From Pseudomonadota bacterium (GTDB lineage Bacteria > Pseudomonadota > Alphaproteobacteria > Sphingomonadales > SMXR01): a DNA stretch of 64,000 nt. The position numbers were made by a program, and so were the translations under genes. The notes beneath the pieces are model-generated. The model did not search any database, was not told where the DNA came from, and saw only the letters and a list, made by a program, of their open reading frames with translations. The DNA is taken from positions 1-64,000 of the forward strand of contig JADFIA010000002.1 of the NCBI GenBank assembly GCA_022566895.1, written 5' to 3'. Below, one piece after another: positions 1 to 43,500 of the stretch; within the stretch, counting starts at the first letter, position 1, and each line of letters starts with the position of its first letter.

Positions 1-3000
1 TCTCCCGCGCCCCCGGACCGGGTTCTGCCCGCCGCCACAATCGTGCCGTCCGGCAAGACCGCCAGTGATTTGACGCCATCGCTCTCGATACCGCTGAAGA
101 TGCGCTCCCAGACGGGATTGCCCGAGCGATCGAGTTTGATGATCTGTATCTCGTCACTGCTGCCGCGGTCCCCCTCGATGCGCCCGGCGACCAGGAAGCC
201 GCCGTCCTTCAAAGCCACGATGGCATCCGCATATTCGTTTCTTTGACCGCCGAAGGCCTTCCCCCAAACCTGTTTGCCGGACCGATCAAGCCTCAAGATC
301 CAAAGGTCTTGATGATCCCGCTGATAGGTCGTGCTGGTAGCCACGGCGAGGCCGCCGTCCGCCAGCGCCGCAAGGGCGCCGAACCGATCCGTGATGGTCG
401 TATCAAATGTCAGTTGCCAGGATATGTTTCCGGTCGTGCTGATTTTCACCAGACGCATTTTGGATCGTTTGCGGCCGCTATCCCGCGGCACCCCGGCCAC
501 CGCCAGCCGCCCATTGGCAAGGACCACGAGACCGGCCGCATATTCGTTGCCGTTGCTGCTGTAGGTCCGCTCCCAGATCGTATTCCCGGAGGCATCCATT
601 TTTCCAACCAGCATGTTTGCGGTTTTTGAACCTTTGGCCTTTCTCCAGCCGGCTATCGCCAACTCGCCTTGAGGCAGTTCTACGATCGCCGTGGCGTTTT
701 CATCTCCCGGGCCGCCCCGCGTATGTTCCCAAATCGTCTTCCCTTTCTCGTCGAACTTCAGAATCCAAACATCGGCCCCACCGGCACCCTTCGATTCGGT
801 CCAGCCGGCCACCGCAATGCCGCCGCCCGATAATATGGCAAGGGCTGTACCCGCATCATTTGCCATGCCGCCCAGCACCCGCTCCCAGGTCACCGGGTAG
901 GGCTCAAAGAACTTGCGCGCCTTATTGGCGTTGGCGCCGCGCGGATATTCCCTCAAGAAGCTGCGATAGTTGGCCACGGTCGGGTTGGCTTGCAGTTTTT
1001 TCCAGGCTGCCCGCTCAACCCTTGAGACCTTGTCCGACAGCAGCTTGATCGCCGCTTCGGCTTCGGCCAGGAACTTGCCCTTTGGATAGGCCGCCTTGTA
1101 GGCCTCGTAGCCGGCGACCGAATCAGCCCTTTGCGCCTCGGCCCAGGCTGCTTCGTGCTGGCGCACGGCGACAGCGGCGATCGCCTGCTCAGCCACCACC
1201 CTGAATTTGCCTCTTGGATAGGCCTTCTTATAAATCTCATAGGCAGCGACCGTATCGAGCCGCTGGGCCTCGGCCCACGCAGTTTCCTCTTTGCGCACGG
1301 CTACGGCTTCGACGGCTTGATTGGCCTCACTTCGAAATTTGCCCTGTGGATAGGCGGCTTTGTAGGCTTCATAGGCGGCGACCGTATCGAGCCGCTTGGC
1401 CTCAGACCATGCGGCTTCTTCTTCGCGCACCGCGACCGCGGAGATCGCCTGGTTGGCCGCAATGACGAACCTACCCCTCGGATAGGCCTCGAGATAAGCC
1501 TCATAGGCGGCGGCAGTGTCGATCTGCCGGGCTTCAGCCCAGGCCGTTTCCTGCGCTTCAATCTTCAGCCTGGCGATCGCTTCATTGGCCGCCTGTACGT
1601 ATTTTCCGCTTGGATAGTTCTCTTTGTAGGTTTCGTAGGCCGGAATTCTGTCGCGGCGCTGAACGCTCACCCAGGCACCTTCTTCGTCCAGCCGCATGAT
1701 CTCGGAGATGGCCTGCCTGGCGGCCGCCACATATTTGCTGGCCGGATGGATATCGATAAAGGCCTCGTAAGCCTCGATCGTTCCTTCAAGCCCTGCCTCG
1801 GCCCAAGCTGCCCCCTGTTCGGCTTCGATTTCTTGAATTTCGGCCATCACCTCACCGACAAAGGCGCCCTCGGGCCTGATCTCGCGGTAGGCTTCTAGGG
1901 CCGGAATGCTTTTCGCGGCCTTGGCAGTCTCCCAGGCCAACCGATCCAGGAGCGCATCTACCTCGGACAGGTGCCGGCCGTCCGACCAGTCCTCCTGATA
2001 TTTCGCGATCTCCACCTCGGTGCCGCCGGCAAGCGCCTCCTGCCAGGCCGCATCGTCTTTCCGATCCAGGGCCGCCATGAGTTTGTCGATCAGAAGCGTG
2101 TCCACTTCCCCGGTCTCAATGAGATTTTCATCGGTCTCGAAACTTCTTACGGCGCCGATAGTGCGCGTGGACATCTCACCGCTCGGTGGGCCAACTTCAT
2201 AGTCCAGTTGGTTTAGCAGCCCCTGCGCCTGCCTGATCAGCGCTGGTTGACCAAACTCGCTGGCTGGCGGTTCGGTTTCCGCCAATTCAGTGGGCGCGGG
2301 GCTTGGGGCAGGCGCTTCGGAAGCCGGCCAGAGAAAATATGCTGTAGCGCCGACCACAAGGACGAGCGCCGCCGCGATGGCCAGTTTGGGAAGACCGTCG
2401 ATCTTCTGGCTAATTTCCGACGGTTTTTTCTGTCTTCGCGCCTTCTTTCCTGCCGCTCTTTCGGCAGCTATCCGTCTACCGCGAAGAAGGGCCAGCCAGT
2501 CGGTGATATCCTTTGGCCGATCATCGGGGTCAGGCGCCAGCGCTATGTCGACCGCTTTTAGGAGGTGTGAAGGCTTGGCTGCTTCGGACGCTTCGTGAAC
2601 CGGAATATAGGGGTCATCCTTGATCCGCACCGTGGCGTCCGGCGGGATTTTGCCGGTCAGGCATTTATAGGCCACCGCGCCGAGCGCATAAATATCGGTC
2701 CAGGGGCCTTGATTGCTGTGCTCGGAATATTGTTCCAACGGCGCATAGCCGGGCGAAACAATGGCCGTAATCGAGCGTGATTTGGCGCCTAAGGCCTGGC
2801 GGGCCGAGCCAAAATCGATCAGAACAGGTGAACCGTCGTCACGGATGATAATGTTACCGGGCTTGATATCCCGGTGTAGATACTCGTTTTTATGAACGAC
2901 CTCGAGCCCTTTGAGCAGCGGTTCCAAAATCGCCCAAACCTCATCTTCGCTTAATTTATGCTTTTCCTTCAGCAGCTCGGAGAGCGTCTTGCCCTCGGCA

Positions 3001-3347
3001 TATTCCATAACGATGTAGCCGGTTTCATGGGCTCGGAAGAAGCGGGAAACCTTGATGATGTTTCGATGATCAAACTTGGCCAGGGTTCGGGCTTCATCCA
3101 GAAAGCGCTCCAGCCCCCATTCAAAGTCTTCCTTGTCGGCCGACGACTTTGGAAGAACGGTCGTTCCATCTTGGCGGACCGCCAAATCGTTGGGTAGATA
3201 TTCTTTTATCGCGACCGGCTTGTAGAGATTGTGATCGTAACCCAGGTAGGTAATGCCGAAACCACCCGAACCGAGGACTCGGATGATCTCATGTTCTTCG
3301 AACCGAAAACCTACCGGCAATGCGTTCAAATGATCGGAAGTCATCAT
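1..3347 (-). CDS. Membrane serine/threonine protein kinase (partial, runs off left edge): kinase domain, TM helix, PG-binding-like domain, 44-aa repeats, propeller-like repeats
   Basis: Minus-strand reading from ATG at 3347 gives MMTSDHLNALPVGFRFEEHEIIRVLGSGGFGITYLGYDHNLYKPVAIKEYLP...YLHRDIKPGNIIIRDDGSPVLIDFGSARQ (GxGxxG, VAIK, HRDIKPGN, DFG). A hydrophobic LAIAAALVLVVGATAYFLW follows, then IRQAQGLLNQLDYEVGPPSGEMSTRTIGAVRSFE. In-frame repeats and ...DASGNTIWERTY...-type repeats continue to the edge. Frame was checked at 1217 and 599. Not in the ORF track because no stop lies inside the window. Confidence 0.9.
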   Translation of the reverse strand, partial: MMTSDHLNALPVGFRFEEHEIIRVLGSGGFGITYLGYDHNLYKPVAIKEYLPNDLAVRQDGTTVLPKSSADKEDFEWGLERFLDEARTLAKFDHRNIIKVSRFFRAHETGYIVMEYAEGKTLSELLKEKHKLSEDEVWAILEPLLKGLEVVHKNEYLHRDIKPGNIIIRDDGSPVLIDFGSARQALGAKSRSITAIVSPGYAPLEQYSEHSNQGPWTDIYALGAVAYKCLTGKIPPDATVRIKDDPYIPVHEASEAAKPSHLLKAVDIALAPDPDDRPKDITDWLALLRGRRIAAERAAGKKARRQKKPSEISQKIDGLPKLAIAAALVLVVGATAYFLWPASEAPAPSPAPTELAETEPPASEFGQPALIRQAQGLLNQLDYEVGPPSGEMSTRTIGAVRSFETDENLIETGEVDTLLIDKLMAALDRKDDAAWQEALAGGTEVEIAKYQEDWSDGRHLSEVDALLDRLAWETAKAAKSIPALEAYREIRPEGAFVGEVMAEIQEIEAEQGAAWAEAGLEGTIEAYEAFIDIHPASKYVAAARQAISEIMRLDEEGAWVSVQRRDRIPAYETYKENYPSGKYVQAANEAIARLKIEAQETAWAEARQIDTAAAYEAYLEAYPRGRFVIAANQAISAVAVREEEAAWSEAKRLDTVAAYEAYKAAYPQGKFRSEANQAVEAVAVRKEETAWAEAQRLDTVAAYEIYKKAYPRGKFRVVAEQAIAAVAVRQHEAAWAEAQRADSVAGYEAYKAAYPKGKFLAEAEAAIKLLSDKVSRVERAAWKKLQANPTVANYRSFLREYPRGANANKARKFFEPYPVTWERVLGGMANDAGTALAILSGGGIAVAGWTESKGAGGADVWILKFDEKGKTIWEHTRGGPGDENATAIVELPQGELAIAGWRKAKGSKTANMLVGKMDASGNTIWERTYSSNGNEYAAGLVVLANGRLAVAGVPRDSGRKRSKMRLVKISTTGNISWQLTFDTTITDRFGALAALADGGLAVATSTTYQRDHQDLWILRLDRSGKQVWGKAFGGQRNEYADAIVALKDGGFLVAGRIEGDRGSSDEIQIIKLDRSGNPVWERIFSGIESDGVKSLAVLPDGTIVAAGRTRSGGAG
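940..1880 (-). repeat. 132-bp (44-aa) in-phase tandem repeats inside the kinase gene
   Basis: The motif GGATAG or a close variant (reverse complement encodes AYP/YP) recurs at 1084, 1216, 1348, 1480, 1612 and 1744, exactly 132 bp apart, with degenerate copies on either side. Protein consensus approx. AWAEAqr.DTvaAYEaYkkaYPrGKF..eA..AI. Confidence 0.9.
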
Positions 3348-3560
3348 TGCTCACAATCCCCCCCTCGGATGGCGGACGCCAACTTGGCAATATTATGTCT
3401 CAAGGCCGGCTTCGGTGCAAATCTTGCATAATATCCGCCTAAGAATCATGCGGTCTGAAATGCCCGTTGAAAGGTAACCGGACCCTCTGAGAACCAAAAA
3501 TAGGCGCAAACCGCCCGATTTGTCAGATGTAGTTTGTTGTGACAGGGAAAATTTGAAAAG

Positions 3561-3648
3561 TGGTGCCCAGGAGAAGACTCGAACTTCCACGACCATAAAG
3601 GCCACTAGCACCTGAAGCTAGCGCGTCTACCAATTCCGCCACCTGGGC
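3561..3648 (-). tRNA. tRNA-Leu(CAG), CCA encoded
   Basis: Reverse complement gcccaggtggcggaattggtagacgcgctagcttcaggtgctagtggcc...gttcgagtcttctcctgggcacca. Anticodon loop TTCAGGT; acceptor GCCCAGG/CCTGGGC; long variable arm. Confidence 0.95.
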
Positions 3649-3847
3649 CAAGAAACCGGTTCGTTGGCTACGCTTCGCACGGCCCGCTGTCAAGCCCTTT
3701 GGAAGGATGAAAACGATCCGGGCCGGATCCATGGTTCAGGCACGAAATTGGCCGATTGCTTCGTTTTTTGGACCCGGTTATGATGCTGCGGTATTTATCC
3801 GCGGGTCAGCTGAAAGCAGTTCGCCTGACCGCAGGAGAGAGCTGACG

Positions 3848-4801
3848 ATGGCGCAGCGACTGATCACTGTTTTTGGCGGTTCCGGATTCCTCGGCCGCTA
3901 TGTGGTGCGGCGCCTGGCCGAGCGCGGCGACCGGGTCCGGGTTGCGGTACGCCGGCCCAATCTGGGGCTGTTCCTGAAGCCGATGGGGGATGTCGGCCAA
4001 ATCGAGCTCAGGGCGGCCAACGTTTTGTACACCGAATCGATTGAAAACGCCGTCGCCGGCGCCGACGCGGTGGTTAATCTGGTGGGTGTACTAAGCGAGT
4101 TTCGGCGCCAGCGGTTTGGGGCCATTCATGCGGCAGGAGCAAGGCGGATCGCCGAGGCCTCGGCCGATGCCGGCGCGCGTACGCTGACCCATGTTTCGGC
4201 TATCGGCGCCGATCCGCAGGCCGCCTCCAAATATGCCCGCAGCAAAGGTGAAGGCGAGTTGGCGGTCAAAGATGCGTTCCCCGCCGCCACCATCTTCAGG
4301 CCCAGCCTTCTAATCGGTCCCGAAGATGATTTCTTTAACCGCTTCGCCCGGCTTTCGAAGCTCAGTCCGGCTTTGCCCATTGTCGGCGGCAAGACCCGCT
4401 TTCAACCGGTCTGTGTCGACGACGTGGCGGCCGCGATCGTGCAAGCTGTGGACGGCGGTAAAAATGTGGCAGGAAAGACTTTCGAATTGGGCGGCCCGGA
4501 GATTTGGACGTTGCGGCAGCTCCTGGAAATCATGATGAGCTACACCGGCGTGAAAAGACCGATTATTGATCTGCCGCCCGTGCTGGCGGCGATCCCGGCG
4601 GCGCTGACCGGCTGGCTGCCAAACCCGCCGATCACGCTCGATCAGATCAGGATGCTGCGCCGGGATAATGTGGTCGGCGAGGGCGCCGCTGGATTCGAAA
4701 AGTTGGGACTGACCCCATCTCCGATCCAAGTGGTCCTGCCGACCTATCTGGCGCGTTATCATGCCAAGGGCCGGCCTCCACAGCCGCGCTCGGGGGTTTA
4801 G
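3848..4801 (+). CDS. NAD(P)-binding epimerase-like protein, complex I NDUFA9 subunit family
   Basis: MAQRLITVFGGSGFLGRYVVRRLAERGDRVRVAVRRP (Rossmann GGSGFLGR). The ORF track begins further upstream, but ATG 3848 follows a purine-rich RBS. Confidence 0.8.
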   Translation: MAQRLITVFGGSGFLGRYVVRRLAERGDRVRVAVRRPNLGLFLKPMGDVGQIELRAANVLYTESIENAVAGADAVVNLVGVLSEFRRQRFGAIHAAGARRIAEASADAGARTLTHVSAIGADPQAASKYARSKGEGELAVKDAFPAATIFRPSLLIGPEDDFFNRFARLSKLSPALPIVGGKTRFQPVCVDDVAAAIVQAVDGGKNVAGKTFELGGPEIWTLRQLLEIMMSYTGVKRPIIDLPPVLAAIPAALTGWLPNPPITLDQIRMLRRDNVVGEGAAGFEKLGLTPSPIQVVLPTYLARYHAKGRPPQPRSGV

Positions 4802-4808
4802 GCTGCAA

Positions 4809-5711
4809 TCAGGCGTATACCCAAATCAGCAGGCCGGCACCGAGCAAAACCCGGTATACAACGAAGATCGTCATGCTCGCCCGTTCGAGCCATCGCATCA
4901 GGAAATGGATGGCGCCGATGGCGGCAAGGAACGACAGGGCGGCGGCAAGAATTGCATCTCCAATCGCCCCCTCGGGGCCGGAAGTGACAAGTTCGTAGGC
5001 GACCAGCGTTCCCGCCGCCAGTATTGTCGGAATGGCCAGCAACATTGAAAAGCGCGCCGCCTCGGTTCTCTTGAAACCGAGCCCGCGGGCCGCAGTCATG
5101 GTGATTCCGGCCCGCGAGGTGCCGGGTACTAGAGCCAGTATCTGGGCCAGGCCGACGATCACAGCTGCCCTCCACGTCAAGCTGGTCAGGTCTTTCTCGG
5201 CCGGCCAGCGTTGGTCGACCCAATAAAGCGCCAGACCAAAAACAATGCTTGCCGCGCCGATCACATCGGCCCGGCGCAGCGCACCGCTGATGCCCAGAGC
5301 GACGAACATAAGGCCGCCCAGAATTACCGGAATTGTGGCCAGAATCAAAAGCCACAGCAGGTGTGGATAATGGCTACCGGCGGTCCGTTGCCGGGCCGCC
5401 TTGAGGCCCAGGGCGCCAAGTCCGGCCCAAAAAAGACCTTTGGTGTCGCGCCGGAAATAGATCAGAACCGCGCCCAGAGTCCCGATGTGCACGGAGACGT
5501 CGAGCAACAGGCCCTGGTCGGGCCAGCCCGTCATTTGGGGTATCAGAATAAGATGACCGGAGGACGAGATCGGCAGGAACTCGGTGATTCCCTGGACCAG
5601 AGCGATGATAAGCAGATGCAGAATCGACAAGGCGCCGGATCCCCCGTTTTTCTCGAGCCTTATACCAATTGAACTCCGTGGCGCCAATGCGGGAATTCCA
5701 AGCTTGGGCAA
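4809..5711 (-). CDS. uppP: Undecaprenyl-diphosphatase (BacA/UppP)
   Basis: LIIALVQGITEFLPISSSGHLILIPQ and PGTSRAGITMTAARGLGFKRTEAARFSMLLAIPTILAA motifs; multi-TM. Start codon uncertain. Confidence 0.95.
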   Translation of the reverse strand: MPKLGIPALAPRSSIGIRLEKNGGSGALSILHLLIIALVQGITEFLPISSSGHLILIPQMTGWPDQGLLLDVSVHIGTLGAVLIYFRRDTKGLFWAGLGALGLKAARQRTAGSHYPHLLWLLILATIPVILGGLMFVALGISGALRRADVIGAASIVFGLALYWVDQRWPAEKDLTSLTWRAAVIVGLAQILALVPGTSRAGITMTAARGLGFKRTEAARFSMLLAIPTILAAGTLVAYELVTSGPEGAIGDAILAAALSFLAAIGAIHFLMRWLERASMTIFVVYRVLLGAGLLIWVYA

Positions 5712-5754
5712 GATGGGGCTGGAGCGCGGACCGCCGATTGGATATTACTTGGCC

Positions 5755-6423
5755 ATGCGCACGCTCTATCACATGATCCTTTCACCGCATTCGCGAAAGA
5801 TCCGCTTGGTTTTGGGCGAAAAGGGTCTGGCTTTCGAGTTGCGGGCCGAAAAAACCTGGGAGCGGCGGGAGGGTTTCCTAAAGCTCAATCCAGCCGGCGA
5901 CGTGCCGGTTCTGGTCGAAGAGGGCAGCCGATTCTATGCCGATTCGACCGCCATCTCGGAATATCTCGACGAGGCTTATCCGGAACCGCCTCTATTGGGC
6001 AATGACGTCGACGGCCGAGCCGAGATTCGGCGGCTGGTGGCCTGGTTCGACGACAAATTTCACCGCGAGGTGGGCCGGCCACTGATCAACGAACGTTTGA
6101 TGAAACGGTTTTTGGGACTCGGAGAGCCGCAGGCCGACGTCCTCCGCAAGGCCTCGCGAAATCTGCGCAGTCATCTGGATTACATTTCCTATCTGGCCGA
6201 GCGACGAAATTATCTCGCCGATGGCATCATCAGCCTGGCCGATCTGGCCGCGGCGGCTCATCTCTCGGTAGCTGACTATCTGGGCCACATCGACTGGTCG
6301 GCCTATCCGGGCGTCAAGGACTGGTATGTCAAAGTCAAATCCCGGAAAAGCTTCCGGCCGCTGCTCAGAGACCGCGTGCCGGGCCTCGAGCCGCCCAAGC
6401 ACTACAGCGAGCTCGACTTCTGA
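5755..6423 (+). CDS. Glutathione S-transferase family protein
   Basis: MRTLYHMILSPHSRKIRLVLGEKGLAFELR...NPAGDVPVLVEEGSRFYADSTAISEYLDE, typical GST N-terminal thioredoxin fold. Confidence 0.85.
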   Translation: MRTLYHMILSPHSRKIRLVLGEKGLAFELRAEKTWERREGFLKLNPAGDVPVLVEEGSRFYADSTAISEYLDEAYPEPPLLGNDVDGRAEIRRLVAWFDDKFHREVGRPLINERLMKRFLGLGEPQADVLRKASRNLRSHLDYISYLAERRNYLADGIISLADLAAAAHLSVADYLGHIDWSAYPGVKDWYVKVKSRKSFRPLLRDRVPGLEPPKHYSELDF

Positions 6424-7532
6424 TGGACCCGAGCCACCTGATCTCAAAAAAAGCGAAGTCGCTTGGTTTCGATGCGGTTGGTTTTACCGCCCCCGAAGCG
6501 GTGGCCGAAGCCGGCGACCATCTGGAGATTTTTGTTGGTGAATCGCGCCACGGCGACATGGATTGGCTGGCCCAGCGGATTCATGAACGCAAGTCACCCG
6601 CCAATCTGTGGCCGGATGTGAAATCCGTGGTGGCGCTGGCCATGAACTACGGTCCCGAGACCGATCCGCTCGATAACCCCAAAAAGAAGGGAGTCGGAAA
6701 CCTCTCGGTCTATGCGCGCGGCAAAGACTACCACGACATCCTGAAAAAGCAGCTGAAGGCGCTTGGCCGTTGGATGGGTGAAGAGTTCGATTGCGAGGTC
6801 AAGGTTTTTGTCGATACGGCGCCGGTGATGGAGAAGCCGTTGGCCGAAGCGGCGGGGATTGGCTGGCAGGGCAAGCATACCAATCTGGTCTCACGGCAGT
6901 ACGGCTCATGGCTCTTTCTCGGTGCCATCTATACGACCCTGGAGATTCCGCCATCGGCGCCGCACCCGGATCGCTGCGGCAACTGCCGGGCCTGCCTGGA
7001 TATCTGCCCGACCGCAGCCTTCACCGGCCCCTACCGGATCGATGCGCGGCGGTGCATCTCGTACCTGACAATCGAGCATAAGGGCCCGATCGCGCGTGAG
7101 TTCCGGCCTCTGATCGGCAATCGCATTTACGGTTGCGACGACTGTCTGGCGGTCTGTCCATGGAACAAGTTCGCCCGCACGGCGAGCGAAGCCGCCTTTC
7201 ACGCCAAAGAAGGCCTCGCAGACCCGCCATTATCGGACCTTCTGGAGCTTGATGAGCCCGCCTTCAGGGAAATGTTCAAGGGCTCGCCGATCAAGCGCAC
7301 AGGCCGCGATCGATTTTTGCGAAATGTTCTTATCGCGGCCGGTAATTCCGGCGATGCCCGGATGCTGGGCGGCGTCGTGCGCCAGCTCGGTGATGAATCT
7401 CCTTTGGTTCGGGGCATGGCGGTCTGGGCGCTCAAGCAACTGGCCGACGATGAACAGTGGAACCGCGAAAAGGCACGACGCGGATCAAAAGAGATGGACA
7501 GCGATGTAAAGAGCGAATGGGCTGCCGACTGA
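6423..7532 (+). CDS. queG: tRNA epoxyqueuosine(34) reductase QueG
   Basis: CGNCRACLDICPTAAFTGPYRIDARRCISYLTIEHKGPI and CDDCLAVCPWNKFA 4Fe-4S motifs; C-terminal HEAT-like segment. Confidence 0.93.
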   Translation: MDPSHLISKKAKSLGFDAVGFTAPEAVAEAGDHLEIFVGESRHGDMDWLAQRIHERKSPANLWPDVKSVVALAMNYGPETDPLDNPKKKGVGNLSVYARGKDYHDILKKQLKALGRWMGEEFDCEVKVFVDTAPVMEKPLAEAAGIGWQGKHTNLVSRQYGSWLFLGAIYTTLEIPPSAPHPDRCGNCRACLDICPTAAFTGPYRIDARRCISYLTIEHKGPIAREFRPLIGNRIYGCDDCLAVCPWNKFARTASEAAFHAKEGLADPPLSDLLELDEPAFREMFKGSPIKRTGRDRFLRNVLIAAGNSGDARMLGGVVRQLGDESPLVRGMAVWALKQLADDEQWNREKARRGSKEMDSDVKSEWAAD

Positions 7533-7536
7533 AGCT

Positions 7537-8490
7537 CTAGCGGCGCGGGCTTTCGGTCTGGCGTTTTTTGCCGGTCACGTCCACCTCGTCGATGCCCTTC
7601 CAACCCTCGATATCGACATTCATCGCTTCGAGATTGGTCCGTGCCGCCTGGGCAGCAACGCTCTTTGGATGGCGACGCAAAAGCTTGATCCAGTCGTGCA
7701 TGGCGCCATCGGTATTGCCGGTCTGCTGGCGCAGGTTTCCGCGCTCAAGAAGCGCCTCCTGATGCTCTTCCGAAATGCGGAAGGCGCCCTTCAGTTCGGC
7801 AGCCGCCAGATCAAACCTCTGCAGATGCCGCAAGGCGCTGGCTCTGAAGACGTAGGTTTCAATGCGATTTGGATCCCGTTCCTGCGCCGCCTCCAGATCC
7901 TTCAGGGCCTGTTCATAATTGCCGAGCATCGCCAGGGACCGAGCCCGGTCGATCCAATGTTCGATGATGGTCGCCGACCAGGTCGGCACGACACCCAAAG
8001 CCTCGGTCAGGCTTGCGTAGGCTTTGAGCGGCTCTTCGGCCAGGATCCAGGCGTTGCCGGCTTGCCCGAAAACTTCAGCCAAAAGTTCGCGGTCGGCCCT
8101 TTCTTCGGAGAAAAAGAAATGACCGCCCAGCCGCATATGGCCGGCAATCTCGTCAAGGGTGCCGGCCGCCTCGGCGAACTTGTTCTGACCCACATAAGAT
8201 AGGGCCAAGCAATGACCGGCCGGCAATCCGCCATCCTCGGCCTGCCAGGCGGCAGCCAGCACTTCGGCCGTTGGGGGCTCGGTTTCGGTAAACGAGATGC
8301 AATCGCGGTAACGCTCGCCGGCGCTGCCGGTCAGCCGGGTTGGCTGCGCGGCCGCTACGGCGCTGCCGAACATCGAGAACGCAAGCAAGATCCGGAGCGT
8401 TTTTGATGCCAAAATCATGCCCCCACATAGGCCATCCGGTGTGGCCATTTCAAGGCTATCTGGGACCTGTCTCCCGGTGCTTCGACTCAA
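7537..8490 (-). CDS. Exported TPR-repeat protein (start probably ATG ~8418)
   Basis: Signal-like MILASKTLRILLAFSMFGSAVAAAQP followed by TPR-like segments (NYEQALKDLEAAQERDPNRIETYVFRASALRHLQRFDLAAAELKGAF). Confidence 0.7.
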   Translation of the reverse strand: MSRSTGRQVPDSLEMATPDGLCGGMILASKTLRILLAFSMFGSAVAAAQPTRLTGSAGERYRDCISFTETEPPTAEVLAAAWQAEDGGLPAGHCLALSYVGQNKFAEAAGTLDEIAGHMRLGGHFFFSEERADRELLAEVFGQAGNAWILAEEPLKAYASLTEALGVVPTWSATIIEHWIDRARSLAMLGNYEQALKDLEAAQERDPNRIETYVFRASALRHLQRFDLAAAELKGAFRISEEHQEALLERGNLRQQTGNTDGAMHDWIKLLRRHPKSVAAQAARTNLEAMNVDIEGWKGIDEVDVTGKKRQTESPRR

Positions 8491-9244
8491 GGTCCTCCAA
8501 CAGCGCCGTCAGCACCGACTGGATGGCCTCGATGTCCCGATCCCGCGACAGGCTGTGGTCACCACCGTCGATAATTCGAATCTGAACGTCGTCCGAGGTC
8601 AGGCGGGCGGCAATGCGGTCCGGCATCTCGGCCGGCACATCGGGATCATCGCCGCCCTGGATCAGGCGGACCGGAATCCCAAGCTCGATCGGCCCCTCCA
8701 TAAGCAGGTTTTGCCGGCCGTCCTCGATCAGCGCCTTGGTGATCGGATAGGTCTCGCCATAGTTGGAAGGCAGTATGACCACACCCTGGCTCATAAGCTG
8801 GCGCCTCTGGGCCGGGTCAAATTGGCACCACATCAATTCCTCGGTAAAATCGGGTGCCGCAGCAAGACCGATCAGGCCAACCACCCGCTCGGGTCTTGAA
8901 AGCGCCACCAAAAGCGCCAGCCAGCCCCCCATCGAACTGCCGATCAGTACCACTGCTCCTTCGGTCACCGCGTCGATGATAGCCAGGGCGTCATCGCGCC
9001 AGGAGGAAATGGTTCCGTCTTCGAAGCGCCCGCCCGAGCGGCCGTGACCCGAGTAATCAAGGCGCAAGTAGGCTTGGCCACGGTCGCGGCAGAAGGCCTC
9101 GAGGGCGGTGGCCTTGCTACCCTCCATATCCGACAGGAAGCCGCCGAGGAAGACAACGCTCGGCTGGCCGCCCGGGCTGTAACGAAAGGCCAGGCGGTGA
9201 CAGCCCGGGACTTCCAGATATTCGATTTCCGACCTGGCGGTCAT
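8456..9244 (-). CDS. Alpha/beta hydrolase
   Basis: VVLIGSSMGGWLALLVALSRPERVVGLIGLAAAPDF nucleophile elbow (GSSMGG); DYSGHGRSGG; C-terminal GGDHSLS. Confidence 0.88.
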   Translation of the reverse strand: MTARSEIEYLEVPGCHRLAFRYSPGGQPSVVFLGGFLSDMEGSKATALEAFCRDRGQAYLRLDYSGHGRSGGRFEDGTISSWRDDALAIIDAVTEGAVVLIGSSMGGWLALLVALSRPERVVGLIGLAAAPDFTEELMWCQFDPAQRRQLMSQGVVILPSNYGETYPITKALIEDGRQNLLMEGPIELGIPVRLIQGGDDPDVPAEMPDRIAARLTSDDVQIRIIDGGDHSLSRDRDIEAIQSVLTALLEDLESKHRETGPR

Positions 9245-9398
9245 GGTTCCCCCTTCGCTCTCTTAATACAGGCTGGCGACCGCCGGGAAAAGCACCGCCG
9301 GTCCGCTGACCGGGGCCGCGCTTTCTTGACAGGGCCCCACAAGGCCTTTACTTCCGCCTAGGGACCAGGAATTTTAAGGCTCTGGAGATCATCAAACC

Positions 9399-11336
9399 AT
9401 GCCCAAGATTTCCATAACCCTGCCCGACGGCAGCGTAAAAAAATACGATCAACCGGTGACCGGCGAAGCGCTGGCGGCAGACATCGGCCCCGGCCTGGCC
9501 AAGGCGGCCCTGGCGGTGCGTATCAATGGTGAGTTGAAGGACCTTTATCTGCCGATAGAGAGCGACGCCGAAGTGGCAATCATTACGGCGAAAGATGAGG
9601 CTTCGCTTGAGCTGATACGGCACGATTGCGCCCATGTGATGGCCCAGGCGGTGCAGGAGCTGTTCCCGGGCACCCAGGTGACCATCGGCCCGGTAATCGA
9701 GGACGGCTTTTTCTATGATTTCGCGCGTCCCGAGCCATTTACCGAGGACAATCTTGCGGTCATCGAAAAACGCATGCACGAGATCGTCGATCGCGACCTG
9801 GCGATCCGGCGCCAGGTCTGGGAGCGCAAAAAGGCGATCAAACATTTCAAGAAGATCGGTGAGGCCTACAAGGCCGAGATTATCGGCGATCTGCCGGGGG
9901 ACGAAGAGATCTCTATCTATTCCCAGGGCGAATGGCTGGATCTGTGCCTGGGGCCGCATCTGACTTCGACCGGCAAGGTGGGCCACGCCTTCAAGCTGCT
10001 GAAAGTGGCCGGGGCCTATTGGCGCGGTGATTCGCGAAACCAGATGCTGACCCGTATTTACGGCACTTGCTGGCACCAGGAAAAGGACCTTCAAGCCTAT
10101 ATCGAGCGGATCGCCGAGGCCGCCAAGCGCGACCACAGAAAACTGGGCCAGCAAATGGACCTTTTTCATTTCCAGGAGGAGGCGCCGGGTGCCATCTTCT
10201 GGCACCACAAGGGCTGGGCGCTAATTTTGCAGCTGGTCGAATATATGCGGGCCCGCAACCAAAAGGCCGGCTACGAGGAGATTTCGACGCCGGAGATTCT
10301 CGATCGGGCGCTGTGGGTAACCTCGGGGCATGTAGAGAAGTTCGGCGAAGACATGTTCTACACCTCGACCCCGGACGGCCGTGAATACGTGATCAAGCCG
10401 ATGAACTGCCCCGGCGGCCTGCAGGTGTACAATAAGGGCATCAAGAGCTATCGGGATTTGCCGCTCAGGGTGGCCGAGTTCGGCAAGGTTCACCGTTTCG
10501 AGCCTTCTGGCGCCCTGCACGGCCTGATGCGTCTGAGGGCCTTTACGCAGGATGATGCGCATATTTACTGCACCGAGGCGCAGTTGCAGGACGAATGCAT
10601 CACCGTGACTCGGCTGATCCTCGATATTTATAAGGATTTCGGGTTTGAGGAGGTCACTATCAAATTCTCGGACCGGCCGCCGCAGCGGATCGGTGCCGAT
10701 GAGGTTTGGGACCGCTCGGAGGCCGCCCTCTTAAAGGCCATCGAGGCGACGGGCAGCGATTTTTCGCACAGTCCGGGCGAGGGCGCCTTTTACGGACCGA
10801 AGCTTGAATTTGTTCTGCGCGATGCGATCGGCCGCGATTGGCAGTGCGGAACTCTGCAGGTCGATCTCAATCTGCCCGAACGCTTTGACGCCACCTTCGT
10901 CGGCCCGGACGGCGAGCGGCATCGGCCGGTCATGCTGCACCGCGCCCTTTTCGGGTCGTTGGAGCGATTCGCCGGGATTCTGATCGAGCATTACGCCGGC
11001 CACCTGCCGCTCTGGCTGGCCCCGGTGCAGACGGTCGTGGCCACCATCACCTCGGATGCCGACGTCTATGCCCGCCAGGTGCATGGGAAGTTGGTGGCGG
11101 CGGGATTGCGCTCCGAGTCGGACTTGCGAAATGAAAAGATCAATTACAAGGTTCGGGAGCATTCGCTGGCGAAAGTCCCGGCTTTGCTGGTCGTCGGACG
11201 CAACGAAGCGGAAAACTCAACGGTTTCAATTCGCCGCTTGGGCGCCAAGGAGCAGCAGATTTTGCCGCTCGATGAAGCCGTCGCCGCACTTCAGGCCGAA
11301 GCCCGGATGCCCGGCTGCCCGGCCAAAGGCGCGTGA
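9399..11336 (+). CDS. thrS: Threonyl-tRNA synthetase
   Basis: TGS domain N-terminus; [16 protein letters not shown]; class II motifs [35 protein letters not shown]. Confidence 0.98.
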
Positions 11337-29654: not shown

Positions 29655-30572
29655 ATGCTCCGGTTGGTATTCATGGGCACCCCCAACTTCGCTGTATCGG
29701 CGTTCGACGCGATAATCGAGGCCGGTCACCAAGTGATCGCTGTTTATACCCAGCCGCCGCGGCCGGCCAAGCGGCACCAGAAGGAACAACCGAGCCCGAT
29801 CCAGCTCCGGGCCGAGGCAAAGGGTCTCAAGATCAGGACCCCGGTCAGCCTTTCGGGGGACCGGGAACAGGAGGCCTTTGCCGCCTTGAAAGCAGATGTG
29901 GCTCTGGTGGTGGCCTATGGTCTTCTGCTGCCCGGGGCACTTCTCGACGGGCCGCGCTACGGCTGCATTAACATTCACGCCTCGCTTTTGCCCCGCTGGC
30001 GCGGCGCCGCGCCGATCCAGCGGGCGATCATGGCGGGAGATAGCGAGAGCGGCGTTTCAATCATGCAGATGGACGAGGGTCTCGATACCGGGCCGATCTT
30101 TCTAAAGCAGGCAATCACCATATCCGAGGGTGAAAATTATGGTTCCCTGCACGATCGCCTGGCGGCGCTCGGCGCCAGGTCCGCAGCCTGCGTCCTGGCC
30201 GACCTCGAAACCGGAAAAGCGGTCGCCGTCCCGCAGGATTCCGAGGGAGCGATTTATGCTCATAAAATTGATAAGGCCGAAGCGCATATTGACTGGCGCC
30301 GCAGCAGCGAAACGGTCAGTCGCCAGGTCCGTGCCTTGAGCCCCCGGCCCGGCGCCTGGTGCGAGGTGGCGGGCGAGCGCCTGAGAATCCTCGAAGGCAC
30401 CCCAAGCAACCTCAGAGGAGAGCCCGGTGAAGTCCTTGACAACAAACTCACCGTGGCCTGTGGCCAAGGCGCCTTGCAGATTACACGAGCCCAGCGACCG
30501 GGCAGGGATGAGATGAATGCGGCCACCTTGCTGCGTGGCTTCCCGATCGCGGCCGGAACCAAAGTTCTGTGA
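29655..30572 (+). CDS. fmt: Methionyl-tRNA formyltransferase
   Basis: [90 protein letters not shown]. Confidence 0.98.
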
Positions 30573-40347: not shown

Positions 40348-40424
40348 GCGCTCGTAGCTCAGCTGGATAGAGCACTAGACTACGAATCTAGGGGTCGGGG
40401 GTTCGAATCCCTCCGAGCGCGCCA
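40348..40424 (+). tRNA. tRNA-Arg(ACG), CCA encoded
   Basis: gcgctcgtagctcagctggatagagcactagactacgaatctaggggtcgggggttcgaatccctccgagcgcgcca; anticodon loop CTACGAA; T run after CCA. Confidence 0.96.
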
Positions 40425-40496
40425 CTTTTTCCAATAAACCTCAAATCAAAAGAACCCACAGGATGTAGTGGGTCGCAACCTATGATTCGCAAATTG

Positions 40497-40525
40497 TTGT
40501 GTTCGCAACGCCGACGGGCTAATCT
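40497..40525 (+). promoter_or_regulatory. Candidate promoter of the HTH/CHAT islet
   Basis: TTGTGT - 17 nt - TAATCT about 140 nt upstream of the first HTH ORF; three TCGCAA motifs overlap or precede it. Confidence 0.25.
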
Positions 40526-40663
40526 TTAGTTGGCGACTCGCGAAGGGAGCAGATGCATATGCCCCTCGGACGATGTTATCTGTGGCAAAAGTTAGGCGGC
40601 TCCCTAAATCTGTAGCGCGACCTTTGGAGGACGAAGAAAACTATTTACGGTTAAGGATGGCAA

Positions 40664-40900
40664 ATGAGTAAGGATTCCACCTTGGAACAAGCCCTCTTGG
40701 ACAAGATCGACGTTCTGATCCGGCTTCAGGCGGTCACGTCTGTCGCCAACTTCGATTCACAGAAAGACAAGATATTGTTTCTCGGCAAAGCTGGAGTCTC
40801 GCCAAAGGACATTGCAGAAATTTTGGGAACGAGCGCCAATACGGTCAGTGTGACCCTATCCAGGGCCCGTAACACTTCTGCAAACAAGGGTAAGAAATAG
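40664..40900 (+). CDS. Small sigma-70 region-4-like HTH protein (HTH-1)
   Basis: 78 aa: MSKDSTLEQALLDKIDVLIRLQAVTSVANFDSQKDKILFLGKAGVSPKDIAEILGTSANTVSVTLSRARNTSANKGKK; SPKDIAEILGTSANTVSVTLSRAR resembles sigma region 4.2. Confidence 0.8.
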   Translation: MSKDSTLEQALLDKIDVLIRLQAVTSVANFDSQKDKILFLGKAGVSPKDIAEILGTSANTVSVTLSRARNTSANKGKK

Positions 40901-40919
40901 TTCGACCGGGAGAAAGCAA

Positions 40920-41108
40920 TTGAACGATACACAAGCGAAGGCCCTTATTGAAGAGATGGAGGCCATTAAGAAACTACTGATATTGCAGCTGGTTGGCAGC
41001 GGCACCAAACAGAAAGAAATCGCTCAAATGCTCAAAATCAGCGAGGCGACTATGAGCCGCATGATTCCTAAAGGGATCACGAAACCGGGCGTAAAATCTG
41101 GTTCCTAG
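40920..41108 (+). CDS. Miniature HTH protein (HTH-2), TTG start
   Basis: 62 aa: MNDTQAKALIEEMEAIKKLLILQLVGSGTKQKEIAQMLKISEATMSRMIPKGITKPGVKSGS; GGGAGA RBS upstream of TTG. Confidence 0.75.
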   Translation: MNDTQAKALIEEMEAIKKLLILQLVGSGTKQKEIAQMLKISEATMSRMIPKGITKPGVKSGS

Positions 41109-41139
41109 AAATTTTTTTTACCTACGAAGGGGAGTCTAA

Positions 41140-41328
41140 ATGGATAAGGCGGATTCAAAGAAAATCATATCTGAACTAGAGGCACTAAAGAAGTTGACAA
41201 TTTTGCAGTTGTTGGACAGAGGGTACACTCAAAACCAAATCGCGCTTACGTTGGGCGTAGCCCAGCAAACGATCAGTAAAATGTTTCCAAAAGGCGTGCT
41301 TGGAAAACCAAAGAACAAAGCGGAATAG
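41140..41328 (+). CDS. Miniature HTH protein (HTH-3), paralogue of HTH-2
   Basis: 62 aa: MDKADSKKIISELEALKKLTILQLLDRGYTQNQIALTLGVAQQTISKMFPKGVLGKPKNKAE; AAGGGGAG RBS; aligns along its length with HTH-2. Confidence 0.8.
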   Translation: MDKADSKKIISELEALKKLTILQLLDRGYTQNQIALTLGVAQQTISKMFPKGVLGKPKNKAE

Positions 41329-41329
41329 A

Positions 41330-42373
41330 ATGGCCGCGATAAAAGTCACAGACTCTCTCTCAAACACACCCGAACAAATTGTGGCCGCGGCTCAGGCGAT
41401 AGGCCGTTCTAGGTATAGGCGAGCGGTTTTTGACGCTGTGTATTATCACAAGAAACGCGACAAGTCGGTGCCGGAGATTTCTAAAACGACGGGTTTGACA
41501 GAGAAACAGGTGCTTAATGCAGGAAACGAATTAAGGAAGGCGGGCATAATCGAACAGACAAAAATTGATGGCAGAACGGCTTACAGTCAAATCGAGTTTT
41601 TTCATCATAACAAAAAGAAAATAATCCGGCTTGTGGAGAACCCGGCAAAAATAAAGGCCATCGCCACAAAGAGAAACCCGGCTATCGGCAAAGGGAAGGT
41701 GTTCTCCTTTACCAAAAAGAGCGCTCAAGCCAACGCCCAGAAAGCGGTGCCTGGGAGTCGAAAAAGGGTTAACAAGAAAATTCGAATCGCGTTTTTGACG
41801 ACCAACCCGATTGAAGAATATTCCTTGCGTACAGACCTAGAAGCGAGAGACGTAAGTCGAGCCATTCAAAGATCCCAAAATAGGGAATTCGTGGACGTAC
41901 ACTATTTCCCGGCGGCTCAATTGCGCGACCTGTTGGATGCCTTAAATAATTTTAGGCCTAACATAATCCACTTTTCCGGACACGGTGGTGACGAGGTTTT
42001 CCTATTTGATAATGAAACAGCAGCAGATGATGAAGGCATCGAGCTTGATTTCGAGAAAATAAATAAAGTTGTTTCAGCGACCATTGAGCCTCCGGTGCTT
42101 TTGGTTTTTAACGCTTGTAATACGACGGACGGCGCCGAGGTATTCCTGGAGACAGTCTCGGCTGTTGTAGCAATGTCCAGCAGCATCAGCGATTTGGCGG
42201 CATGCCTATTCTCTGAGCAATTCTACTCAGCGATTGCCGCTGGCCAATCGATTGGGCACGCACTGAAGCAAGGCAAAATAGTGTTGGAGGCGGCTAATTT
42301 GAAGGACGCGGATCTCCCGACAATAATTTCCAGACCGGAAGTTGATGCCGATACGCTAACGTTTATCGCCTAG
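41330..42373 (+). CDS. Winged-helix + CHAT-domain (caspase-like) protease
   Basis: ATG 41330 lies 1 nt after the HTH-3 stop. N-terminal wHTH (YRRAVFDAVYYHKKRDKSVPEISKTTGLTEKQVLNAGNELRKAGIIEQTKIDGRTAYSQ), Lys-rich linker, then RIAFLTTNP...NIIHFSGHGGDEVFLF (His218, codon 41981) and VLLVFNACNTTDGAEVFLETVSAVVAMSSSISDLAACLFSEQFYSAIAAGQSIGHALKQGK (Cys263, codon 42116), a CHAT signature. Confidence 0.82.
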   Translation: MAAIKVTDSLSNTPEQIVAAAQAIGRSRYRRAVFDAVYYHKKRDKSVPEISKTTGLTEKQVLNAGNELRKAGIIEQTKIDGRTAYSQIEFFHHNKKKIIRLVENPAKIKAIATKRNPAIGKGKVFSFTKKSAQANAQKAVPGSRKRVNKKIRIAFLTTNPIEEYSLRTDLEARDVSRAIQRSQNREFVDVHYFPAAQLRDLLDALNNFRPNIIHFSGHGGDEVFLFDNETAADDEGIELDFEKINKVVSATIEPPVLLVFNACNTTDGAEVFLETVSAVVAMSSSISDLAACLFSEQFYSAIAAGQSIGHALKQGKIVLEAANLKDADLPTIISRPEVDADTLTFIA

Positions 42374-42393: not shown

Positions 42394-42654
42394 CTAATCG
42401 CGCGGCAGGTCCATCTCGAGGATCGAGATCTGGAGGGCGTAGGAAATCTCGCCTTCGTCCTCGTCCTTGTAAATCACGCCCATAAACTCGTCGCCCATAA
42501 GCATCTCGACTGAATCGTCGACATTGGCCCGGGCCTGGACCTTGATCTGGTTGTTGGAAAAGGTCTCGCGCAGATATTGCTGCAGACGGGCGATTTCAAA
42601 GGGGTCCACGGGATTTCCTTCGGAATTGGAGTGATTCGGGCGTCGATTCGCCAA
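42394..42654 (-). CDS. DUF3126-like small protein
   Basis: (V/M)DPFEIARLQQYLRETFSNNQIKVQARANVDDSVEMLMGDEFMGVIYKDEDEGEISYALQISILEMDL; likely start at in-frame GTG (VDPFEIARLQQYLR). Confidence 0.7.
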   Translation of the reverse strand: MANRRPNHSNSEGNPVDPFEIARLQQYLRETFSNNQIKVQARANVDDSVEMLMGDEFMGVIYKDEDEGEISYALQISILEMDLPRD

Positions 42655-42852
42655 TGGCGATTCCTATATCGCGGTTTTTTTGCCCGAGGGCAAGGCCCTA
42701 GCCGCACGAAAGAAAATGAATCATTTGGCGGCCCCTGGGGCAATATTCGGTGCCCGGGCCGGCCCACGGCGCAGCCTTCGTTCGCTTCGTCAAAAGCCCC
42801 TTGACTTCTGGAATTTGCACCCTATCTAGAGCCGCGATTGGGGGCCTTGTGT

Positions 42853-42888
42853 CCCCATTTCGTGGATTTGCCCCATTTCGTGGATTTG
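42853..42888 (+). repeat. Perfect 18-bp tandem duplication in front of the SleB-like gene
   Basis: CCCCATTTCGTGGATTTG x2 at 42853-42870 and 42871-42888, ending at the GGAGG RBS. Confidence 0.9.
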
Positions 42889-42900
42889 GAGGAAAAACCT

Positions 42901-43500
42901 GTGAACCGAATCTTCGGCTTATTTGCCGGCCTTGCTCTTTTCTTGCCTTTGGCCTTGGCGGATCGGGGCGATGCCGCGCCTCAGGATGATTTCTTGCTGT
43001 CGCTAGAGGACATCGTCGCGGTGGTCTCCTTTGACCAGGCGGTGGCGCGAACCTCAAGCCTTGAGAGCCTTGTGCGGGCCTCGGCAACGATTGGCGAGGG
43101 GCAGCTTTCCGATGCCCAGCGCTGTTTGGCCCAGGCGGTCTACTTTGAGGCCCGCAGCGAGACCCTGGAGGGTCAGCTCGCGGTCGCCCAAGTGGTCCTG
43201 AACCGGGTCGCGAACCGGCGCTATCCCTCGAGCATCTGCGGCGTCGTGTTCCAGAACGAGCGGCTGCGGCACCGCTGTCAATTTTCCTTTGCCTGCGACG
43301 GCCGTTCGGATACGCCCCGCGAGCGCCGGGCCTGGGAGATCGCCAAGCGGATCAGCCAGATCGCTCTGGCCGGCCAGTGGCGCGACCTGAGCGGTCGGGC
43401 CACCCACTATCACGCCACCTACGCCGACCCGAGCTGGCGCTCAGCGATGATGAAAACCGCAGCCCATGGCCAACACCTATTTTACCGTGAGGCCAGTTAA
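42901..43500 (+). CDS. Cell wall hydrolase, SleB/CwlJ family (GTG start)
   Basis: Signal peptide (V)NRIFGLFAGLALFLPLALA; QRCLAQAVYFEARSETLEGQLAVAQVVLNRVANRRYPSSICGVVFQ...CQFSFACDG. Confidence 0.88.
   Translation: MNRIFGLFAGLALFLPLALADRGDAAPQDDFLLSLEDIVAVVSFDQAVARTSSLESLVRASATIGEGQLSDAQRCLAQAVYFEARSETLEGQLAVAQVVLNRVANRRYPSSICGVVFQNERLRHRCQFSFACDGRSDTPRERRAWEIAKRISQIALAGQWRDLSGRATHYHATYADPSWRSAMMKTAAHGQHLFYREAS

Follow-up and report, generated by a model that had tools for sequence, protein, structure and literature searches.

What is the role of a short row of genes in which three miniature helix-turn-helix (HTH) proteins are followed by a winged-helix protein with a CHAT protease domain, beside a tRNA-Arg gene of an alphaproteobacterium of the order Sphingomonadales? 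The window, by which we mean the whole stretch of 64,000 nucleotides analysed here (contig JADFIA010000002.1, positions 1 to 64,000), contains this row, which an earlier note had described as a minimal signalling or defence module at 40440–42373. The four same-strand open reading frames (ORFs) on which that description was built (78, 62, 62 and 347 aa) are present next to tRNA-Arg(acg), and the protease ATG does begin 1 nt past the stop codon of the third HTH gene. The right-hand end of the interval stands, but the left-hand end does not, as the operon has its first start codon at 40664, preceded by non-coding sequence. The features of the locus are as follows.

40348–40424, plus strand: tRNA-Arg(acg), found by ARAGORN and Rfam; left border of the insertion, outside the module
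40425–40663, plus strand: non-coding operon leader, with no wHTH remnant and no convincing promoter or operator
40664–40900, plus strand: HTH-A, 78 aa, from Pfam, alignments and HMM, with orthologues at 9 of 9 other loci
40920–41108, plus strand: HTH-B2, 62 aa, TTG start, from alignment, tree and AlphaFold (AF2) model
41140–41328, plus strand: HTH-B3, 62 aa, from Pfam, alignment and tree; the final HTH gene ahead of the effector
41330–42373, plus strand: effector gene, 347 aa, as an ORF with its stop codon at 42371–42373
41330–41680, plus strand: predicted winged-helix adaptor, about residues 1–117 of the effector, from the AF2 model and its TubR/MarR-like structural matches
41681–41776, plus strand: variable linker, residues 118–149, predicted to be disordered (AF2 pLDDT below 50 at 118–148)
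41777–42370, plus strand: predicted CHAT caspase-like protease domain, residues 150–347, from Pfam, alignment and AF2 model
42394–42654, minus strand: DUF3126-like gene, convergent to the effector gene; the AT-rich insertion has its right border between the two

The genes of the window module are separated by 19 nt (HTH-A/B2), 31 nt (B2/B3) and 1 nt (B3/effector), and the module is AT-richer than its surroundings, as had been noticed from the sequence (46.9% GC compared with 59.9% in the flanks). Homologues of all four ORFs were found by HMM at nine independent loci, with E-values of roughly 1e-20 to 1e-35, so these are real genes rather than chance ORFs. On the far side of the DUF3126-like gene, we observed a perfect 18-bp tandem duplication at 42853–42888 (CCCCATTTCGTGGATTTG), a short way into the ORF at 42838–43500; it possibly sits upstream of the true start of that ORF.

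The effector protein carries a predicted CHAT domain joined to a predicted winged helix. The 347-aa protein matched the CHAT profile PF12770 with 36.7 bits against a cut-off of 24 (E 4e-9). An AF2 model built with nine homologues (mean pLDDT 81) places a winged helix at about residues 13–108, a disordered linker at 118–148, and the CHAT domain at 150–340. The top fold match of this model in the PDB was SAVED-CHAT 8tl0 (Foldseek, E 4.5e-14), followed by human caspases, and in sequence too, no solved CHAT domain came closer than 8tl0 (E 4e-13). TubR and the MarR-type BpsR were among the structural matches as well, and we take these to belong to the N-terminal half of the effector. The residues H218 and C263, which the earlier note had proposed for mutation, are invariant in 9 of 9 aligned sequences and align with the HFIGHG and NAC motifs of 8tl0. 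By profile, alignment and model, the protein is thus a predicted CHAT peptidase with a caspase-like fold and an intact predicted His/Cys pair, in agreement with the original assignment. NCBIfam gave no match for the protein. A T-K-R-x-P motif closes the adaptor; its form TKR(R/N)P is largely conserved and is degenerate in the Hyphomicrobium locus L023.

Searches of other genomes revealed a larger operon, of which the window copy is a reduced version; the word minimal is therefore misleading. Among 301 genomes of the window's order there was a single full-length homologue (L010, 44% identity), and directly 5′ of its effector gene lie five small HTH genes and a wHTH gene of about 109 aa. The same gene plan, with four small HTH genes, was found at L019, which is from the same class as the window. 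A CHAT-motif scan of 85,462 species genomes, to which modules with other effectors are invisible, returned seven full-length homologues among the best 80 of 470 relatives. These come from Hyphomicrobium (L023), Methyloceanibacter (L024), Rhodoplanes (L025), Bauldia (L026), a member of Hyphomonadaceae (L032), and two further Alphaproteobacteria (L052 and L060, the latter being the same locus as L019), and all seven have the gene order wHTH, HTH-A, HTH-B genes, wHTH-CHAT. Including the window, the module is therefore known from ten distinct loci in Alphaproteobacteria, nine with CHAT and one (L113) with another domain. The general order in the relatives is a wHTH gene (about 105 aa), HTH-A, one to four HTH-B genes and the effector gene, giving four to seven genes in 1.7–2.3 kb. 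Gene junctions in the relatives mostly range from −14 to +14 nt, often −8, −4, 0 or +1, and these short or overlapping junctions suggest translational coupling.

The number of HTH-B genes varied across loci. A third HTH-B gene is usual in the relatives, L010 has four, and L113 has only one. The window copy lacks the upstream wHTH gene and HTH-B1, and tblastn found no remnant of the wHTH gene in the leader at 40425–40663. One decayed copy was seen in a Rhodospirillaceae metagenome-assembled genome (L061:4980–5693), where the CHAT domain and the TKRNP linker motif are kept and the adaptor and HTH genes are gone, which suggests that the module is dispensable. This relic shows that decay occurs, and together with the two missing genes it would fit a view of the window copy as a degenerate remnant of a selfish element that has no cellular function in this genome. 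We consider that very unlikely, however, since the four remaining frames are intact with their catalytic pair, and the sets at L032 (without B1, like the window) and L113 indicate that small sets are viable. The relic also bears on the origin of the fusion. We do not claim that CHAT was recruited to the adaptor more than once independently, as a single-clade p-value of 0.0002 becomes 0.41 when L061 is counted, and we go no further than to say that one origin of adaptor-CHAT is not rejected by these sequences.

The small HTH genes accompany the adaptor without exception. The earlier note had asked whether HTH and CHAT genes co-occur across genomes, and a uniform HMM test was applied to 104 loci that had 1.2 kb or more of upstream sequence. 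Both HTH-A and HTH-B were present at 9 of 9 distinct adaptor loci besides the window (eight of them with CHAT), and the 88 adaptor-less CHAT loci had none of the three HTH types. Further order in the set came from a tree of 26 HTH-B proteins. The HTH-B2 clade contains exactly one gene from each of nine CHAT-type loci (support 98/99), and the HTH-B1 clade contains genes of five loci (support 92/80). The second HTH gene of the window is HTH-B2, and the third groups with the B3 genes with weak support. As judged from this tree, the HTH genes are distinct parts with positional orthology, not a random array. Such orthology of HTH-B2 and HTH-B1 speaks for separate tasks within a single assembly rather than for recent amplification of a regulator. 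An array of recently duplicated sensors, forming a diversifying repertoire, is accordingly not favoured, given that HTH-B2 is a single-copy orthologue at each locus.

The HTH proteins themselves are of generic types. HTH-A reaches the Pfam gathering scores of both Sigma70_r4_2 and HTH_23, although the Sigma70_r4_2 match covers only the last 26 positions of that profile. HTH-B3 meets the HTH_7 cut-off, and all HTH matches of HTH-B2 in Pfam are sub-threshold. The AF2 model of HTH-B2 (mean pLDDT 86) has an N-terminal helix of 24 residues (3–26) followed by an HTH, and this HTH part superposes on those of NarL/LuxR-type and archaeal regulators at about 1 Å over 32 residues, with E-values that are not significant. 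Overall, the small HTHs are generic tri-helical domains, nearest to GerE/LuxR, DeoR, Hin, archaeal regulators and sigma region 4. When sigma profiles were compared with the window HTHs, matches were confined to the HTH segment and lay far under the curated cut-offs.

The earlier note had proposed an analogy with sigma-factor and anti-sigma circuits, as a much reduced counterpart of CRISPR-type protease signalling. In such a Craspase- or CalpL-like system, the CHAT protease would free a sigma-like HTH protein and so change transcription. The resemblance of the domain to CHAT and SAVED-CHAT proteases and the Sigma70_r4_2 score of HTH-A point in that direction. However, the module encodes neither a sigma region 2 nor an anti-sigma protein, only single tri-helical HTHs of 62–78 aa, and the effector protein gave no match to a SAVED, CARF or TPR domain. 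There was no Cas gene nearby, and no CRISPR-like direct repeats were found at 30000–54000. At L113, moreover, the HTHs persist in the absence of the protease. With generic HTHs, no sigma factor and nothing pointing to a protease-sigma circuit, the analogy finds no support, and we regard reduced CRISPR-type signalling as highly improbable.

Comparison with the nearest known CHAT proteins points to a different sensor half. SAVED-CHAT (8tl0) is activated by cA3 and belongs to type III-B CRISPR and CBASS. A protease of type III CRISPR/CBASS immunity (PMC11229360), it has, among solved structures, the CHAT domain nearest to that of the module by both sequence and fold, with HFxGHG and NAC motifs common to the two. 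In contrast, the window locus has no SAVED, Cas or cyclase genes, and its sensor half is a predicted winged helix plus separate mini-HTHs. Craspase (TPR-CHAT, or Csx29, with Cas7-11, Csx30 and a sigma factor) likewise uses a CHAT protease as a multi-gene effector, but TPR, Cas7-11, crRNA, Csx30 and the sigma factor are all missing from the module, whose HTHs also persist where CHAT does not. Outside the module, the CHAT domains of highest similarity, at 49% identity or less among the best 80 of 470 relatives, are those of coiled-coil-CHAT proteins, which are encoded by single genes of about 350 aa (L002, L003, L020, L027 and others). These have the same overall length as the module effector, but their N-terminal half looks like a coiled coil rather than a winged helix, and HTH genes are found at none of them.

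We also observed CHAT genes in two clusters of other composition. On the pTi plasmid NZ_CP039902.1 (L005), positions 119–10166 hold a caspase gene, a TIR gene, three CHAT genes, a wHTH gene, a metallophosphoesterase gene and a second TIR gene, and this Ti-plasmid cluster resembles a densely packed CHAT/TIR conflict island. On a Sphingomonas plasmid (L004, NZ_CP155753.1), positions 2261–6168 encode a caspase-like protein, an S8 peptidase, a CHAT-like protein and a TIR protein in series.

An indication of how the parts relate came from a locus where the protease has been exchanged. When 249 genomes of another order were searched with HTH-A, genome G1172 proved to have a wHTH gene, HTH-A, one HTH-B gene and a gene for a 296-aa effector, the last at L113:1928–2815 (plus strand) and L114:9406–10293. 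The N-terminal 115 or so residues of this effector are 50% identical to the window adaptor, and its C-terminal half is not CHAT. That half carries the motifs KDWGGExxD ... DG ... KGP ... GxNGDQ ... RL ... QH ... IDG and has relatives, fused to different N-terminal parts, on plasmids of Rhodococcus and Gordonia (L117, L118). It had no match in Pfam, and a PDB sequence search returned nothing credible; by our reading of the motifs, it may be a nuclease-like domain of the PD-(D/E)XK-like kind. Fusion of a window-like adaptor to an unrelated domain indicates that the effector is swappable, although we have seen this exchange only once; the contig that bears it measures 233 kb, and its genome is listed as 99% complete. 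Effector swapping is typical of immune systems. That the HTH chassis persists where the protease is exchanged speaks for HTHs that work for the adaptor rather than for the protease itself. The adaptor motif is no dedicated site of CHAT self-cleavage, since it also appears, as PTKRKN, in this non-CHAT effector.

This exchange weakens the idea that the operon is a regulatory cassette in which small HTHs repress a toxic operon and the CHAT protease cleaves one or more of them, or its own linker, so that a trigger brings about de-repression. There is precedent for such an arrangement. PprI/IrrE cleaves DdrO, and published pairs of an HTH repressor and a protease govern immune operons, among them CapP, which cleaves CapH (PMC13373217). 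The HTH proteins of the module have a net positive charge, are encoded ahead of the effector, and include similarity to antitoxin- and repressor-like families (HTH_3, HipB, HigA and Xre-like). Likewise, in CapH with CapP, CapW/BrxR, and CapK with CapS, HTH proteins are encoded before an immune effector, with a protease involved in the case of CapH/CapP. In those controllers, however, the protease or kinase is part of the regulator and the effector is separate, whereas the module has several paralogous HTHs followed by an HTH-fused effector. No relatives of CapP, WYL or GHKL/STAS proteins were detected in the module, and Pfam and PADLOC gave no match to a second peptidase. Since L113 retains the HTH set and adaptor with no protease, HTH cleavage cannot be the general reason for the set; three to six different HTH proteins also exceed the need of an autoregulator, and the effector is itself a wHTH fusion. 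We consider a regulatory cassette doubtful, if worth keeping in view.

Composition and context indicate that the module is a predicted mobile insertion between core genes. Its GC content (47%–55%) is lower than that of the flanks (57%–71%) by 8–16 points at 10 of 10 loci. Two genomes of the same family (L122 and L124) have an empty site, in which tRNA-Arg is followed after about 60 or 120 bp by a DUF3126-type gene, the counterpart of the one at 42394–42654 in the window, with no module between them; in L124 the genes upstream of the tRNA, which encode a relative of histidine kinases and a small lipoprotein, are syntenic too by inspection. Integration sites vary and include tRNA-Arg in the window, the 3′ side of lepA (L010 and L024), and a position beside dnaE (L114), with neighbour names such as DUF3126, lepA and dnaE taken from inspection of ORF translations. 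The lepA site has been used independently twice (L115, in genome G236, and L024), with both modules convergent to lepA, which suggests that the 3′ side of lepA is a shared, integrase-free insertion hotspot. Distribution is patchy, at about 1% or fewer of the sampled genomes. No integrase was recognised beside the modules, the 3′ end of the tRNA showed no att-type duplication, and no obvious defence islands surrounded the loci, the window neighbours being core genes by ORF inspection. Searches of phages, viral contigs and plasmids found no copies of the HTH set; five viral contigs matched through CHAT similarity only.

Patchy, mobile distribution would also suit a toxin-antitoxin system, with the effector as toxin and the small HTHs binding and blocking it as antitoxins or co-repressors. 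A tight operon with short junctions and the effector last, as well as the HipB/HigA matches among the HTHs, would be expected of such a system. Nevertheless, a single antitoxin would be enough, four positionally orthologous paralogues are unusual, and a lack of plasmid copies is atypical for addiction modules, so we judge a toxin-antitoxin function unlikely.

We did not find a shared DNA signal ahead of the operons. In 10 leaders, no common operator or other motif in the DNA stood out against shuffled controls. The words GATTCG/CGAATC (containing GANTC) occur in 6 of the 10, partly as inverted pairs (for example at window 40480–40490, L024:3697–3748, L052:3650–3680 and L025:3670–3810), a frequency no better than in shuffles. 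GANTC is the CcrM methylation site of alphaproteobacteria. In winged-helix fusion endonucleases of the DpnI/HhiV4I type, which are 6mA sensors (PMC11037411), a winged helix is similarly joined to an effector domain and senses the state of DNA, but their effectors differ from those of the module and there is no HTH array. Methylation sensing by the module is a speculative idea.

Together, these observations lead us to a tentative preference, held at somewhat less than an even chance, for a compact, horizontally mobile conflict module, most likely anti-phage, in which a fixed mini-HTH set and an adaptor carry a swappable effector. The HTH proteins and the winged-helix adaptor would bind DNA, each other, or both as one assembly, and the DNA-bound assembly would hold the effector separated or silent. 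A change of DNA state, such as invader DNA, DNA damage or loss of an operator complex, would then release or cluster the effector domains, and the CHAT protease or alternative effector would act on host or invader targets and stop the cell. In favour of a conflict module are the perfect co-occurrence, with adaptor loci always accompanied by HTH-A and HTH-B and the 88 adaptor-less CHAT loci by neither, the positional orthology, the replacement of the effector, and the low-GC insertion at varied sites with an empty site and a patchy distribution. Proximity of the CHAT domain to the SAVED-CHAT of CRISPR/CBASS immunity and the relic at L061, by which the module is apparently dispensable, count in the same direction. 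Against it are the lack of phage or plasmid copies, defence islands, an integrase and an operator motif, the single swap, and the generic HTH families, which could equally be simple transcription regulators. A more specific reading, possible but rather improbable, is that this is an undescribed modular immune system in which heteromeric, positionally fixed mini-HTHs would read DNA directly (its sequence, modification or invasion state) and the adaptor would switch on interchangeable effectors, be it a caspase-like protease or another domain.

PADLOC-DB 2.0 gave weak matches only, limited to generic HTH, wHTH or CHAT segments, and we found no description of the module in the open-access full-text literature. 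As far as these sequences tell, the module is a new modular arrangement of known domains, and its immune role is plausible but unproven. In bacteria, CHAT and caspase proteases count among the counterparts of the proteases that act in eukaryotic cell death, and their known upstream sensors are, to our knowledge, nucleotide second messengers, CRISPR RNA or large NTPases. The small size of the module means that it could easily be moved into, and tested in, laboratory alphaproteobacteria. If our preferred reading is true, direct sensing of DNA state would be another way of controlling a caspase-like effector.
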